Assembly (NCBI GenBank): GCA_947623805.1
Contig: CANQHZ010000038.1
Span: 1-32,994, forward strand
Direction: 5' to 3'
Source of the DNA: an uncultured Lachnospiraceae bacterium
GTDB taxonomy: Bacteria > Bacillota > Clostridia > Lachnospirales > Lachnospiraceae
Length of the DNA stretch: 32,994 nucleotides
The notes under the pieces are model-generated. The model searched no databases. It saw only the letters and a list, made by a program, of their open reading frames with translations, and had not been told where the DNA came from. The first letter of the stretch is position 1; each line of letters opens with the position of its first letter. Below, piece after piece: positions 10,581 to 26,106 of the stretch. The position numbers were made by a program, and so were the translations under genes.

Positions 10581-10611
10581 CTTCGGGTTGGGCTGTTCTA
10601 AAAACAGTCAA

Positions 10612-10683
10612 CAGCTCGTAGGGGAATCGAACCCCTGTTTCCGCCGTGAGAGGGCGGCGTCTTAACCGCTTGACCAACGAGCC
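10612..10683 (-). tRNA. tRNA-Glu (anticodon CTC), copy 1
   Basis: The minus strand folds into a full cloverleaf of 72 bases: acceptor GGCTCGT/ACGAGCT (with one terminal G-U pair), D-arm GTC/GAC, anticodon stem CCGCC/GGCGG around the loop CTCTCAC, and a T-arm with TTCGATTC. Anticodon CTC reads the glutamate codon GAG. The CCA end is not encoded. It is identical to the copy at 10726-10797. Confidence 0.95.
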
Positions 10684-10725
10684 ATTATCAATAGCACATA
10701 TTCATCTGTCGGGATAAAAAACAAA

Positions 10726-10797
10726 CAGCTCGTAGGGGAATCGAACCCCTGTTTCCGCCGTGAGAGGGCGGCGTCTTAACCGCTTGACCAACGAGCC
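10726..10797 (-). tRNA. tRNA-Glu (anticodon CTC), copy 2
   Basis: This is the same 72-base cloverleaf as copy 1, identical in sequence, with anticodon CTC in the loop CTCTCAC and no encoded CCA. It is the promoter-proximal copy, and 42 bases separate the two genes. The identical sequence points to a recent duplication or ongoing gene conversion. Confidence 0.95.
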
Positions 10798-10830
10798 GTT
10801 TACTGTATGTCTGTCCGCGACAGCTATTTT

Positions 10831-23823: not shown

Positions 23824-23853
23824 ATTATATACCATTTTGTGGGTGTTCTTCAA
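23824..23853 (-). promoter_or_regulatory. Predicted promoter of the bile salt hydrolase gene
   Basis: On the minus strand, TTGAAG (23848-23853) and a perfect TATAAT (23824-23829) are separated by 18 bases. This gives a leader of about 60 bases. The foldback element at 23901-24067 lies just upstream of the -35. Confidence 0.6.
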
Positions 23854-23900
23854 TGATATATTTTTTTATGTTTTTTATATTTTGGTATTGGCCAACGGGC

Positions 23901-24067
23901 GCTCAGGCAGAAAAATATATCCCATTCAGCCCCGCTTGCGCTTGGTGGAACGCGTAGCGGACACTAAGCTCAATGGCGCTGTAAAAGGAGCTACGCTTTT
24001 ACAGCTTATTTCGCTAAGTGCCGACGCATTCCAATGGGCTTCATGGGATATATTTTTCTGCCTGAGC
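23901..24067. repeat. 167-bp foldback (self-complementary) element
   Basis: The ends are perfect 25-base inverted repeats at 23901-23925 and 24043-24067, with termini GCTCAGGCAG and CTGCCTGAGC. The inside is almost fully self-complementary too: AGCCC/GGGCT, GGAA/TTCC, GCGT/ACGC, CGG/CCG, CACTAAGC/GCTAAGTG (one mismatch), AAT/ATT, and finally GCTGTAAAAG (23978-23987) with CTTTTACAGC (23996-24005) around an 8-base loop. The left side carries about 15 extra bases. The whole element would fold as one long hairpin on either strand. It lies downstream of the ATPase gene and upstream of the bsh promoter. No target-site duplication or coding frame is evident. It may be a MITE-like or REP-like element, or a large structured terminator. 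Confidence 0.85.
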
Positions 24068-24234
24068 TAGGTTGCTGGTTTTCCTTTAGTAGTGTATGGT
24101 GCAGGTTGACTGCTTTTGTGCCGATTACCTTTCTAGGGTGCTATTTTTCCTTTTGTATCTTGTGTTGATTGCTTTTGCTTTAATTGCTTCAATTGCCTTA
24201 AATCAAATCATATATGAAAATTACTGACTGATTT
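24068..24234. other. Gene-free stretch downstream of the metal ATPase
   Basis: Together with the foldback element and the bsh leader, this completes a 477-base gap without genes (23758-24234). It is T-rich on the plus strand and holds a loose repetition of ATTGCTT and TTGCTTT near 24165-24200. I see no promoter, terminator or reading frame that I would support here. Confidence 0.5.
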
Positions 24235-26106
24235 TTATTTGCCGCTATAGCTTAATGTCCGCATTGAGTTTATTATCGCTAGTACGGCTACGCCTACGTC
24301 GGCGAAGACTGCTGCCCACATGCTGGCTATGCCTAATGCGCCTAAAATGAGGACTATTGCTTTGACTGACAGGGCAAAGACTATGTTTTGCTTTACTATG
24401 GTGAGGGTTTTTCTTGAGATTTTTACTACTTTGGCGATTTTTCTGACGTCGTCGTCCATAAGCACTATGTCTGCTGCCTCTATAGCGGCGTCTGAGCCCA
24501 TGCTGCCCATTGCGAAGCCTATGTCTGCTCTTGTGAGTACGGGAGCGTCATTTATGCCGTCGCCTGCGAAAGCGAGTTTTTCTTTGCCGCGCTGTTCGTC
24601 AAGGAGTTTTTCGAGGATTGATACTTTATCTGCGGGCAGGAGTTCTGCGTGTGTTTCGTCTATGCCTAGCGTTCCTGCTACTGCCTGCGCTGTTTCTTTT
24701 CTGTCACCTGTGAGCATTACGCATTTCTTTACGCCTACTTTTTTCATGGCGCTTATGGCATCTTTTACGCCGTCTTTTATTGTGTCGGTTATCAGTATTG
24801 CGCCTGCGTATTTTTTGTTAATTGATACATAGCAGACTGTGCCTATGTCGTTGCATGGGGTGACGGATATGCCATTGTTTTTCATTAGCTTTTCGTTGCC
24901 GATGAGCACTTCTTTGCCGTCTACGAGAGCGGTAATGCCGTGTCCTGCTGTTTCGCTTGCGTTTTCTACTCTTTCCATGTCGAGGTCTTTTTGGCATGCT
25001 GTCCTTATGGATACCGCTATCGGGTGGTTGGAGTAGCCCTCGGCAAGCGCTGCTGTTTCGATAAGCTGTTCTTTTGTTATTCCGTCTGCGGGGATAAGCA
25101 TTGACACTTTAAATTCGCCTTTGGTGAGTGTACCTGTCTTGTCGAAGACGATTGTTGTCATCTCGGAAACGGCTTCAAGGTAGTTGCCGCCTTTGACAAG
25201 CACGCCTAGCCTTGATGCCGCGCCAATGCCGCCGAAAAATCCGAGCGGTACGGAAATTACAAGCGCGCATGGGCATGAGATTACCAGGAATGTGCAAGCT
25301 CTGTGCATCCAGCTTATCCAGCCGCCGCCAAGTACAAGCGGAGGTACTAGCGCGAGCAGGACTGCCGCTATTGTGACTATGGGCGTATAGTATTTGGCAA
25401 ATTTGGTGATGAAATTTTCAACTTTTGCTTTTTTGGAGCTGGCGTTTTCGACAAGCTCAAGGATTTTTGCCACTGTGGAGTCGTCATATTCTTTTGTCGT
25501 GCGGATTTTGAGCGTGCCGCCGCCGTTTACGCAGCCGCTATAAACTTCATCATTTACGCACGCGCGCCTTGGCACTGACTCGCCTGTGAGGGCGGCTGTG
25601 TTGAGAAGCGAATCGCCCTCTATCACTATGCCGTCCAATGGGACTTTTTCACCCGGCTTTACGACTATTATGCTGCCTATCTCCACATCATCTGGGTCTA
25701 CCTGCGTGAGTGCACCGTCCTCCTCGATATTGGCGTACTCGGGGCATATGTCCATCATATCCGCGATTGACTGGCGCGATTTGCCTACCGCATAACTCTG
25801 GAAAAGCTCGCCTACCTGATAGAAAAGCATTACCGCCGCCGCCTCAGAAAATTCCTGTGCACCGAATGCGCCGAATGTCGCTATCATCATAAGAAAATTT
25901 TCGTCAAATACCTGACCGTTTTTGATGTTTTTTGCCGCTTTTATGATGATGTCATAGCCGATTATCAGATACGGCACCAGAAAGAGTACCATCTGAACCC
26001 ATATATTTTCAGGCAAAAATCCTGTATGCTCTCCTATCATCAGTGCGGCAAGCAGCACAAATGATATTATTATTCGATACAGCATTCTCTTTTGCTTCTG
26101 TGTCAT
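24235..26106 (-). CDS. P1B-type heavy-metal ATPase (Zn/Cd/Pb export type) without an HMA domain
   Basis: This ATPase pumps divalent soft metals out of the cell. The 623-residue protein has the P1B layout: six or more transmembrane helices, LTGESVPR (actuator, near 173), SCPCALVIS (CPC in the transport helix, 278-280), FDKTGTLTKGE (phosphorylated Asp near 322), SNHPIA (the HP locus, near 361) and AGDGINDAP. The C-terminal VGVAVLAIINSMRTL helix suits the Zn/Cd/Pb subgroup (ZntA/CadA). The usual N-terminal HMA domain is missing; it is encoded as a separate gene just upstream. GGGGGG precedes the ATG. The codon style changes along the gene: the 3' part is A/C-ending and the 5' part is mixed. Confidence 0.93.
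   Translation of the reverse strand: MTQKQKRMLYRIIISFVLLAALMIGEHTGFLPENIWVQMVLFLVPYLIIGYDIIIKAAKNIKNGQVFDENFLMMIATFGAFGAQEFSEAAAVMLFYQVGELFQSYAVGKSRQSIADMMDICPEYANIEEDGALTQVDPDDVEIGSIIVVKPGEKVPLDGIVIEGDSLLNTAALTGESVPRRACVNDEVYSGCVNGGGTLKIRTTKEYDDSTVAKILELVENASSKKAKVENFITKFAKYYTPIVTIAAVLLALVPPLVLGGGWISWMHRACTFLVISCPCALVISVPLGFFGGIGAASRLGVLVKGGNYLEAVSEMTTIVFDKTGTLTKGEFKVSMLIPADGITKEQLIETAALAEGYSNHPIAVSIRTACQKDLDMERVENASETAGHGITALVDGKEVLIGNEKLMKNNGISVTPCNDIGTVCYVSINKKYAGAILITDTIKDGVKDAISAMKKVGVKKCVMLTGDRKETAQAVAGTLGIDETHAELLPADKVSILEKLLDEQRGKEKLAFAGDGINDAPVLTRADIGFAMGSMGSDAAIEAADIVLMDDDVRKIAKVVKISRKTLTIVKQNIVFALSVKAIVLILGALGIASMWAAVFADVGVAVLAIINSMRTLSYSGK

Follow-up and report, generated by a model that had tools for sequence, protein, structure and literature searches.

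The window, as we call the whole stretch of 32,994 nucleotides analysed here, comes from an uncultured Lachnospiraceae bacterium. Its minus strand carries a choloylglycine hydrolase family gene (PF02275; 22783..23757), called bsh below, and upstream of it an E1-E2 ATPase gene (24235..26106, also minus strand). The gap between the two contains a foldback element (23901..24067 from stem to stem; plus strand, which is the orientation of our covariance model R1), which lies downstream of the 3' end of the ATPase gene. The interval between the element and bsh contains a promoter-like sequence, TTGAAG-18-TATAAT (23824..23853, minus strand), with 10 of 12 matches; the scan found 2 such sites, compared with 1.2 expected by chance. 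By eye, the sequence was also seen in the orthologues of two sister species, G046 and G047.

The foldback reported by the first-pass annotation was found at exactly these positions and is far above chance. Its terminal arms (23901..23925 and 24043..24067, plus strand) form Watson-Crick pairs at 25 of 25 positions. A stretch of 187 nt was predicted to fold with an energy of -95.6 kcal/mol on the plus strand and -102.7 kcal/mol on the minus strand (z-scores of -9.4 and -10.9, respectively), and none of 200 shuffled sequences folded equally well. From these shuffles and from the 42 places at which the element occurs in its own genome (see below), we rejected a single-copy chance hairpin. Between the arms lie, all on the plus strand, a two-bp mini-hairpin, GC-TTGC-GC (23934..23941), a conserved 5' core box, GCGTAGCGGACACTAAGCTC (23952..23971), a terminal hairpin with the 10-bp stem and 8-base loop that had been annotated (23978..24005), and a conserved 3' core box, CGCTAAGTGCCGACGC (24012..24027). 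On the same strand, the stem is preceded by a possible 5' tag, GGGC (23897..23900), and followed by an 11-base 3' tail, TAGGTTGCTGG (24068..24078). Because this tail is common to the copies and its identity between orthologs exceeds that of the flank (91.6% versus 80.4%), the element may be slightly longer than originally delimited. The tag has a consensus among the copies (GG-C or GGAC) and is no better kept between orthologs than the left flank (82.6% versus 86.5%). As the annotation had remarked, the element does not look like an intrinsic terminator, since its outer stem is followed by the 3' tail (genus consensus, TAGTGTATTGG) and not by a T-run; terminator-like inner hairpins numbered 1, versus 1.2 in shuffles. 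The annotation had described it as having no coding frame; two mechanical open reading frames of 83 and 97 amino acids on the plus strand do overlap it, but the gene caller predicted no gene there.

We retrieved 40 copies from the same genome and aligned 34 of them to build the covariance model R1, leaving out 5 that had a nested hairpin and another located at a contig end. A search of the genome with R1, in which 150 of 1113 candidates were scored, gave 84 rows, corresponding to 42 places, 2 contig-end fragments and 40 readings of the same places on the opposite strand. This copy number is a lower bound, some copies being located at contig ends. A DNA search of the same genome gave 43 match rows. 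The earlier guess that this was a repeat family was therefore right: the element is not single-copy, it has relatives throughout the bacterial family, and its pairing is conserved in them with strong compensatory change. Some copies carry a second hairpin of about 62 bp nested in the mini-hairpin (L118:3036-3100; also L107, L116, L119-L121, L145, L160-L162, L171 and L192), which orthologs may have or lack. A search of the own genome for this nested hairpin gave 10 match rows, representing 9 places; at 3 of these (C76, C7 and C11), no copy of the element is known. A third small hairpin stands beside the terminal hairpin in a few copies (L156 in G046, L171 in G047, and L291).

A first DNA search of 29 relatives gave no match. 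R1, by contrast, found copies in close relatives and in the wider family, and we rejected a species-specific repeat. Of 38 genomes of the genus, 5 gave matches, namely the own genome, G046, G047, G048 and, with one hit, G002; at E≤1e-16, there were 41 copies in G046, 51 in G047 and 21 in G048. In a sample of 397 Lachnospiraceae genomes, with just 6 candidates scored per genome, 116 matched at E≤1e-5, in 102 of 334 genera. A second model, R2, built from 40 copies, matched 64 of 392 genomes in a sample of the order, all of them within the Lachnospiraceae, and 5 of 398 in a sample of the phylum, 4 of them Lachnospiraceae. The family and order matches were counted by model score, a minority of them being read individually. 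The fifth genome of the phylum sample, G1107, belongs to another family and gave 6 matches with R2; its best copy (L328:1501-1663) has CGCTCTCGCTC, CTAAGCTC and TCGCTAAGTACCGA within a long hairpin. Because the core boxes sit inside such a hairpin, we regard this copy, judging by its sequence, as a true relative. The matches in G1107 raise the question of horizontal transfer. Two observations speak against a model that catches any long hairpin: a single non-family genome in 398 was matched, with core boxes in its best copy, and the core motifs are common to 35 copies.

The 20-mer GCGTAGCGGACACTAAGCTC occurs in 99 stretches of a genome collection; the 80 matches listed bear the titles Lachnospiraceae, Acetatifactor, [Clostridium] symbiosum or uncultured bacterium. 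The 20-mer was absent from viral contigs, and blastn gave no match to the element in plasmids or phages, which led us to reject a phage, plasmid or viral origin. With Rfam 15 at the gathering threshold, the window gave just two tRNAs and 8 loci of other genera gave nothing, so that a known Rfam family was also rejected. A sub-threshold match to MIR7993 (28.9 bits, compared with a cut-off of 100) was taken as a generic match to a long hairpin. We found no description of this repeat family in the open-licence literature.

The copies measure 165-172 bp from stem to stem in the genus and 130-157 bp in 35 copies of other genera. The latter share one plan, in which an outer stem free in sequence leads through a small internal loop to a GC mini-hairpin, a second stem and a boxed core. 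The core box, CGTAGCGG..ACTAAGCTC, contains a two-base bulge and an A-A mismatch. Among the 35 copies of other genera, CGYARCDG was present in all 35, the ACTA part in 32 and the mini-hairpin CGCTnnCGCT in 31, and the box CTAAGTGCCGACG was exact in 20. The terminal hairpin, which stands between the core box and the box CTAAGTGCCGACG, differs strongly between genera. In an alignment of 40 copies, mostly from other genera, 94.5% of the cells pair, compared with 36-41% in slid versions; this alignment was fitted to the structure, so that its counts lean toward pairing. Aligning the copies, as the first-pass annotation had suggested, revealed overwhelming compensatory change, with 631 double-changed cells versus a shuffled mean of 164. 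Thus, the core is largely fixed in sequence, while the outer arms take almost any sequence provided that they pair. The conserved core exceeds the needs of a plain stem, which suggests a binding partner.

How the arms stay paired was assessed from the non-standard pairs. When one base of a Watson-Crick pair undergoes a transition, G·T and A·C arise at roughly equal rates; of the two, G·T should be spared where an RNA stem is under selection. The arms of 119 copies (128 rows minus 9 in which fewer than 20 arm pairs were Watson-Crick, 8 of these 9 coming from loci with the nested hairpin; one weak inner pair was also dropped) comprised 2931 Watson-Crick, 16 A·C, 12 G·T and 9 other pairs. The outer 22 pairs of the 40-copy alignment (A5, with 5 copies taken as from this genus and 4 weakly paired positions of 64 dropped from the counts) comprised 841 Watson-Crick, 16 A·C, 3 G·T and 12 other pairs. 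G·T was thus not commoner than A·C in the arms, i.e. it was not spared. The inner helices had 49 A·C and 36 G·T pairs at the level of the genus, and 8 A·C and 18 G·T across genera in A5. Because G·T exceeds A·C across genera, some RNA-level tolerance or selection may have room in the inner helices.

Further evidence was obtained from 69 comparisons between orthologs; these are not independent, as the three species give up to three pairs per group, and they left out pairs in opposite orientation and the copies dropped from the 119-copy set. In the arms, there were 75 swaps of a whole pair versus 36 positions that were Watson-Crick in one copy alone (the other copy having A·C in 15, G·T in 11 and another combination in 10); a weakly supported pair, L150/L188, contributed 10 of the arm differences. 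The inner helices showed 83 swaps versus 73 unmatched or G·T states in the same comparisons, a small excess of double changes. The conserved bulge was lost in at least 5 copies at four loci (L110; L145; L153 and its ortholog L202; L196), each with a bulge-keeping ortholog (L182; L094 and L169; L103; L127). Four of the bulge-less copies were measured, and in each the 3' and 5' sides are perfect reverse complements of one another over 21-29 bp; each conversion would have occurred in one step. A change that makes an imperfect palindrome perfect is described, in the cited parts of two papers, as a mark of template switching (PMC8794818; PMC7202029). The proposal that the arms are kept complementary by template switching between them during replication is well supported by the sequence comparisons, because unmatched states are rarer than swapped ones, arm pairs show no preference for G·T over A·C, and bulges have been converted to perfect palindromes.

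We then matched copies between the own genome (G000), G046 and G047 by their flanks. This gave 91 copy pairs in 38 ortholog groups, 19 of which contain all three species, and the orientation was the same in 83 of the 91 pairs. L087 and L165 have co-linear flanks and a reversed element, possibly due to an in-place inversion between the arms. An ortholog was found for 31 of 40 copies in G000, 31 of 40 in G046 and 35 of 46 in G047; with both flanks and the same orientation, the numbers were 23, 26 and 30. The window copy lies outside the 40-copy set of G000. Its orthologs in G046 and G047 likewise lie next to bsh, and its arm differences from the G047 ortholog are compensated changes. In 51 ortholog pairs (those with both flanks, after removal of longer copies and of copies close to contig ends), identity was 95.1% and 95.4% in the arms and 94.7% in the core, compared with 86.5% and 80.4% in the adjacent 46-50 bases of flank, gaps not counted. 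Relative to 300-bp flanks, which include coding sequence, the element was just slightly more conserved (94.3% versus 91.9%). The best reading of these comparisons is that the family is old and now mostly stationary. Some movement is possible, because no ortholog was found for 9 of the 40 own copies. We looked at the corresponding sites of two of them in relatives. In G047, eight bases at the start of the stem remain and are joined to the far flank at a shared AGCA, resembling a deletion scar. In G046, about 200 bases are missing, with no clear signature. No target duplication was recognised at either site, and the deletion-like one is probably no true pre-insertion site.

None of 126 copies in the three genomes overlapped a predicted gene by more than 20 bp, with gene calls made by our own simple caller. 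The 119 gaps that bear copies comprised 94 co-directional, 18 convergent and 7 divergent gaps, compared with 226, 11 and 30, respectively, among 267 gaps without a copy; the shortage of divergent gaps alone was not significant (p = 0.13). Among co-directional copies, 76 of 91 were closer to the upstream stop than to the downstream start (p = 5e-11), which could merely reflect avoidance of promoters. The orientation relative to co-directional genes was balanced (51 versus 45). A 3'-end hairpin is the most economical role, given that both strands can fold and that the copies follow genes in either orientation. By analogy with YPAL (see below), the hairpin formed on whichever strand is transcribed would punctuate or protect the 3' end of the upstream mRNA; such punctuation is perhaps the function. 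Selection on this role or on a factor that binds the core would then keep the copies in place.

The position of the element next to bsh had led to the idea that it might be a structured RNA controlling this gene. A bsh-specific role, as in a leader, is unlikely, because the promoter-like site stands between the element and bsh and because the neighbours of the copies are unrelated genes: 74 neighbouring proteins matched 181 Pfam families, each found in at most 2 proteins, so that no shared neighbour family emerged. The 7-bp alternative pairing that had been pointed out (23952-23958 with 23990-23996) is present in the sequence and not conserved. It was complete in 73 of 116 copies of the genus (89 when G-T is counted) and in 1 of 24 copies examined among the 35 of other genera, and its 5' base was altered without its partner in 13 of the 116. 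The alternative pairing is thus largely a feature of the genus, without maintenance by compensatory change, and a two-state switch was rejected on these counts.

Large palindromic intergenic repeats such as YPAL, bcr1, ERIC and REP are already known. The present repeats differ in their family-wide range, in combining a fixed middle with free ends, and in the strength of the template-switch signal. The best reading is a new repeat with a conserved core that resembles REP and YPAL, the likeness to the latter being one of description: like YPAL, it is multi-copy, intergenic and 100-200 bp long, with a conserved fold. The cited account of YPAL, also called RU-2 (Yersinia palindromic sequence, 168 bp), describes a near-identical length, many intergenic copies, non-terminal inverted repeats and a possible influence on the stability of upstream transcripts (PMC2229807). 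According to the same account, YPAL occurs in Yersinia and Erwinia carotovora, shows target duplications and has moved recently; the present element differs in that most copies are common to sister species and the core spans a bacterial family. The bcr1-bcr18 repeats are likewise similar by description, being intergenic repeats of Firmicutes, some with conserved folds; in the cited account, 84 of 165 and 62 of 155 copies in two strains are transcribed, often in UTRs, the repeats are described for the B. cereus group, and bcr1-bcr3 are called MITE-like (PMC3446304). REPs and REPINs, as presented in the cited text (PMC3733652), share with the element many extragenic hairpin copies and a short tag at one end, and differ in being 20-40 bp long and tagged GTAG or CGTC, compared with 165-172 bp in the genus, 130-157 bp in other genera, and GG-C or GGAC before the stem. 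Inverted copy pairs, at most a few hundred bases apart and resembling oversized REPINs, were seen in other genera (G352, G740, G732, G132 and G057). The suggestion of a REP-like family thus fits in behaviour. Y1_Tnp, the transposase family that we searched for, gave 10 matches in 5 of 12 genomes, and R1 at E≤0.1 found no match in these 10 loci. With size and tag also differing, a REP moved by a RAYT was rejected. Copies would once have been spread by a mobilizer, which this search did not find. Altogether, the repeat family and the REP-like behaviour in the original interpretation stood; the strict MITE was not supported, the control of bsh is unlikely, and the two-state pairing is not conserved. 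We are moderately confident in the account as a whole, i.e. an old, mostly stationary repeat family with template-switched arms, a presumed 3'-end role and a presumed mobilizer in the past.

We weighed this account against several others. The very strong covariation, the boxes conserved in sequence across genera and the excess of G·T over A·C in the inner helices across genera would all suit a multi-copy structured non-coding RNA, i.e. a small RNA gene or UTR element whose fold is held by ordinary RNA-level selection. We nevertheless consider it unlikely: G·T makes up 0.4% of the standard pairs in the arms and is not above A·C, the copies show little strand preference relative to co-directional genes, the 74 neighbouring proteins have no family in common, and Rfam gave no match. 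A MITE, or another small transposable element whose ends are recognised by the transposase that moves it, appears still more doubtful. Its conserved part would be the terminal inverted repeats; here, inverted ends exist and are the variable part, around a conserved middle, which is the reverse of a MITE. Moreover, orthologs in a sister species were found for 31 of the 40 own copies, the two absences examined showed no target duplication (one looking like a deletion scar), no copy lies within the 10 Y1_Tnp loci, and plasmids, phages and viral contigs gave no match. Such an element would be consistent with dozens of dispersed copies with differing flanks, short motifs common to copies at both ends, two near-identical neighbouring copies with different flanks (L251), and the 9 own copies without ortholog found. 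A MITE in the strict sense, as proposed in the first-pass annotation, is thus not supported.

Two further readings give more weight to the fold itself. A folded single-stranded DNA site for a dedicated recombinase or replication factor, with the bulged core recognised and the arms aiding folding, would be analogous to the attC sites of integrons or to a single-strand origin. The retention of the bulge and A-A mismatch while arms and terminal hairpin vary, and the strictly Watson-Crick arms, could be read in this way. It is however highly improbable, with copies dispersed near gene ends, no partner gene found and no plasmid or phage copy found. More tentatively than our preferred account, and rather less probably, the repeats may form a new family-wide structural class, in which a folded DNA or RNA strand has its bulged core read by a Lachnospiraceae factor at dozens of sites and its arm pairing kept by arm-templated replication. 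If this were true, the textbook covariation of the arms would be largely mutational and would not come from RNA selection.

To return to the repeat family with template-switched arms, a close parallel is the work of Monttinen and Loytynoja (2022), whose cited part describes RNA hairpins kept by template switching, with arm-templated multi-base compensatory changes and stem extension (PMC8794818). Their cases, in that part, are RNA genes; ours is a dispersed bacterial intergenic repeat, with 42 places as parallel cases. With dozens of parallel copies in each genome, sister-species orthologs, and swapped arm pairs outnumbering unmatched ones, the repeats constitute a natural experiment in which template switching in bacterial hairpins becomes directly testable, and which bears on how far covariation proves RNA function. 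They also give a major family of gut bacteria one more large family of repeats, and the fixed bulged core offers a bait for a binding protein. A separate observation in the window was that of two tandem tRNA-Glu (CTC) genes on the minus strand (10611-10684 and 10725-10798), with equal Rfam scores.
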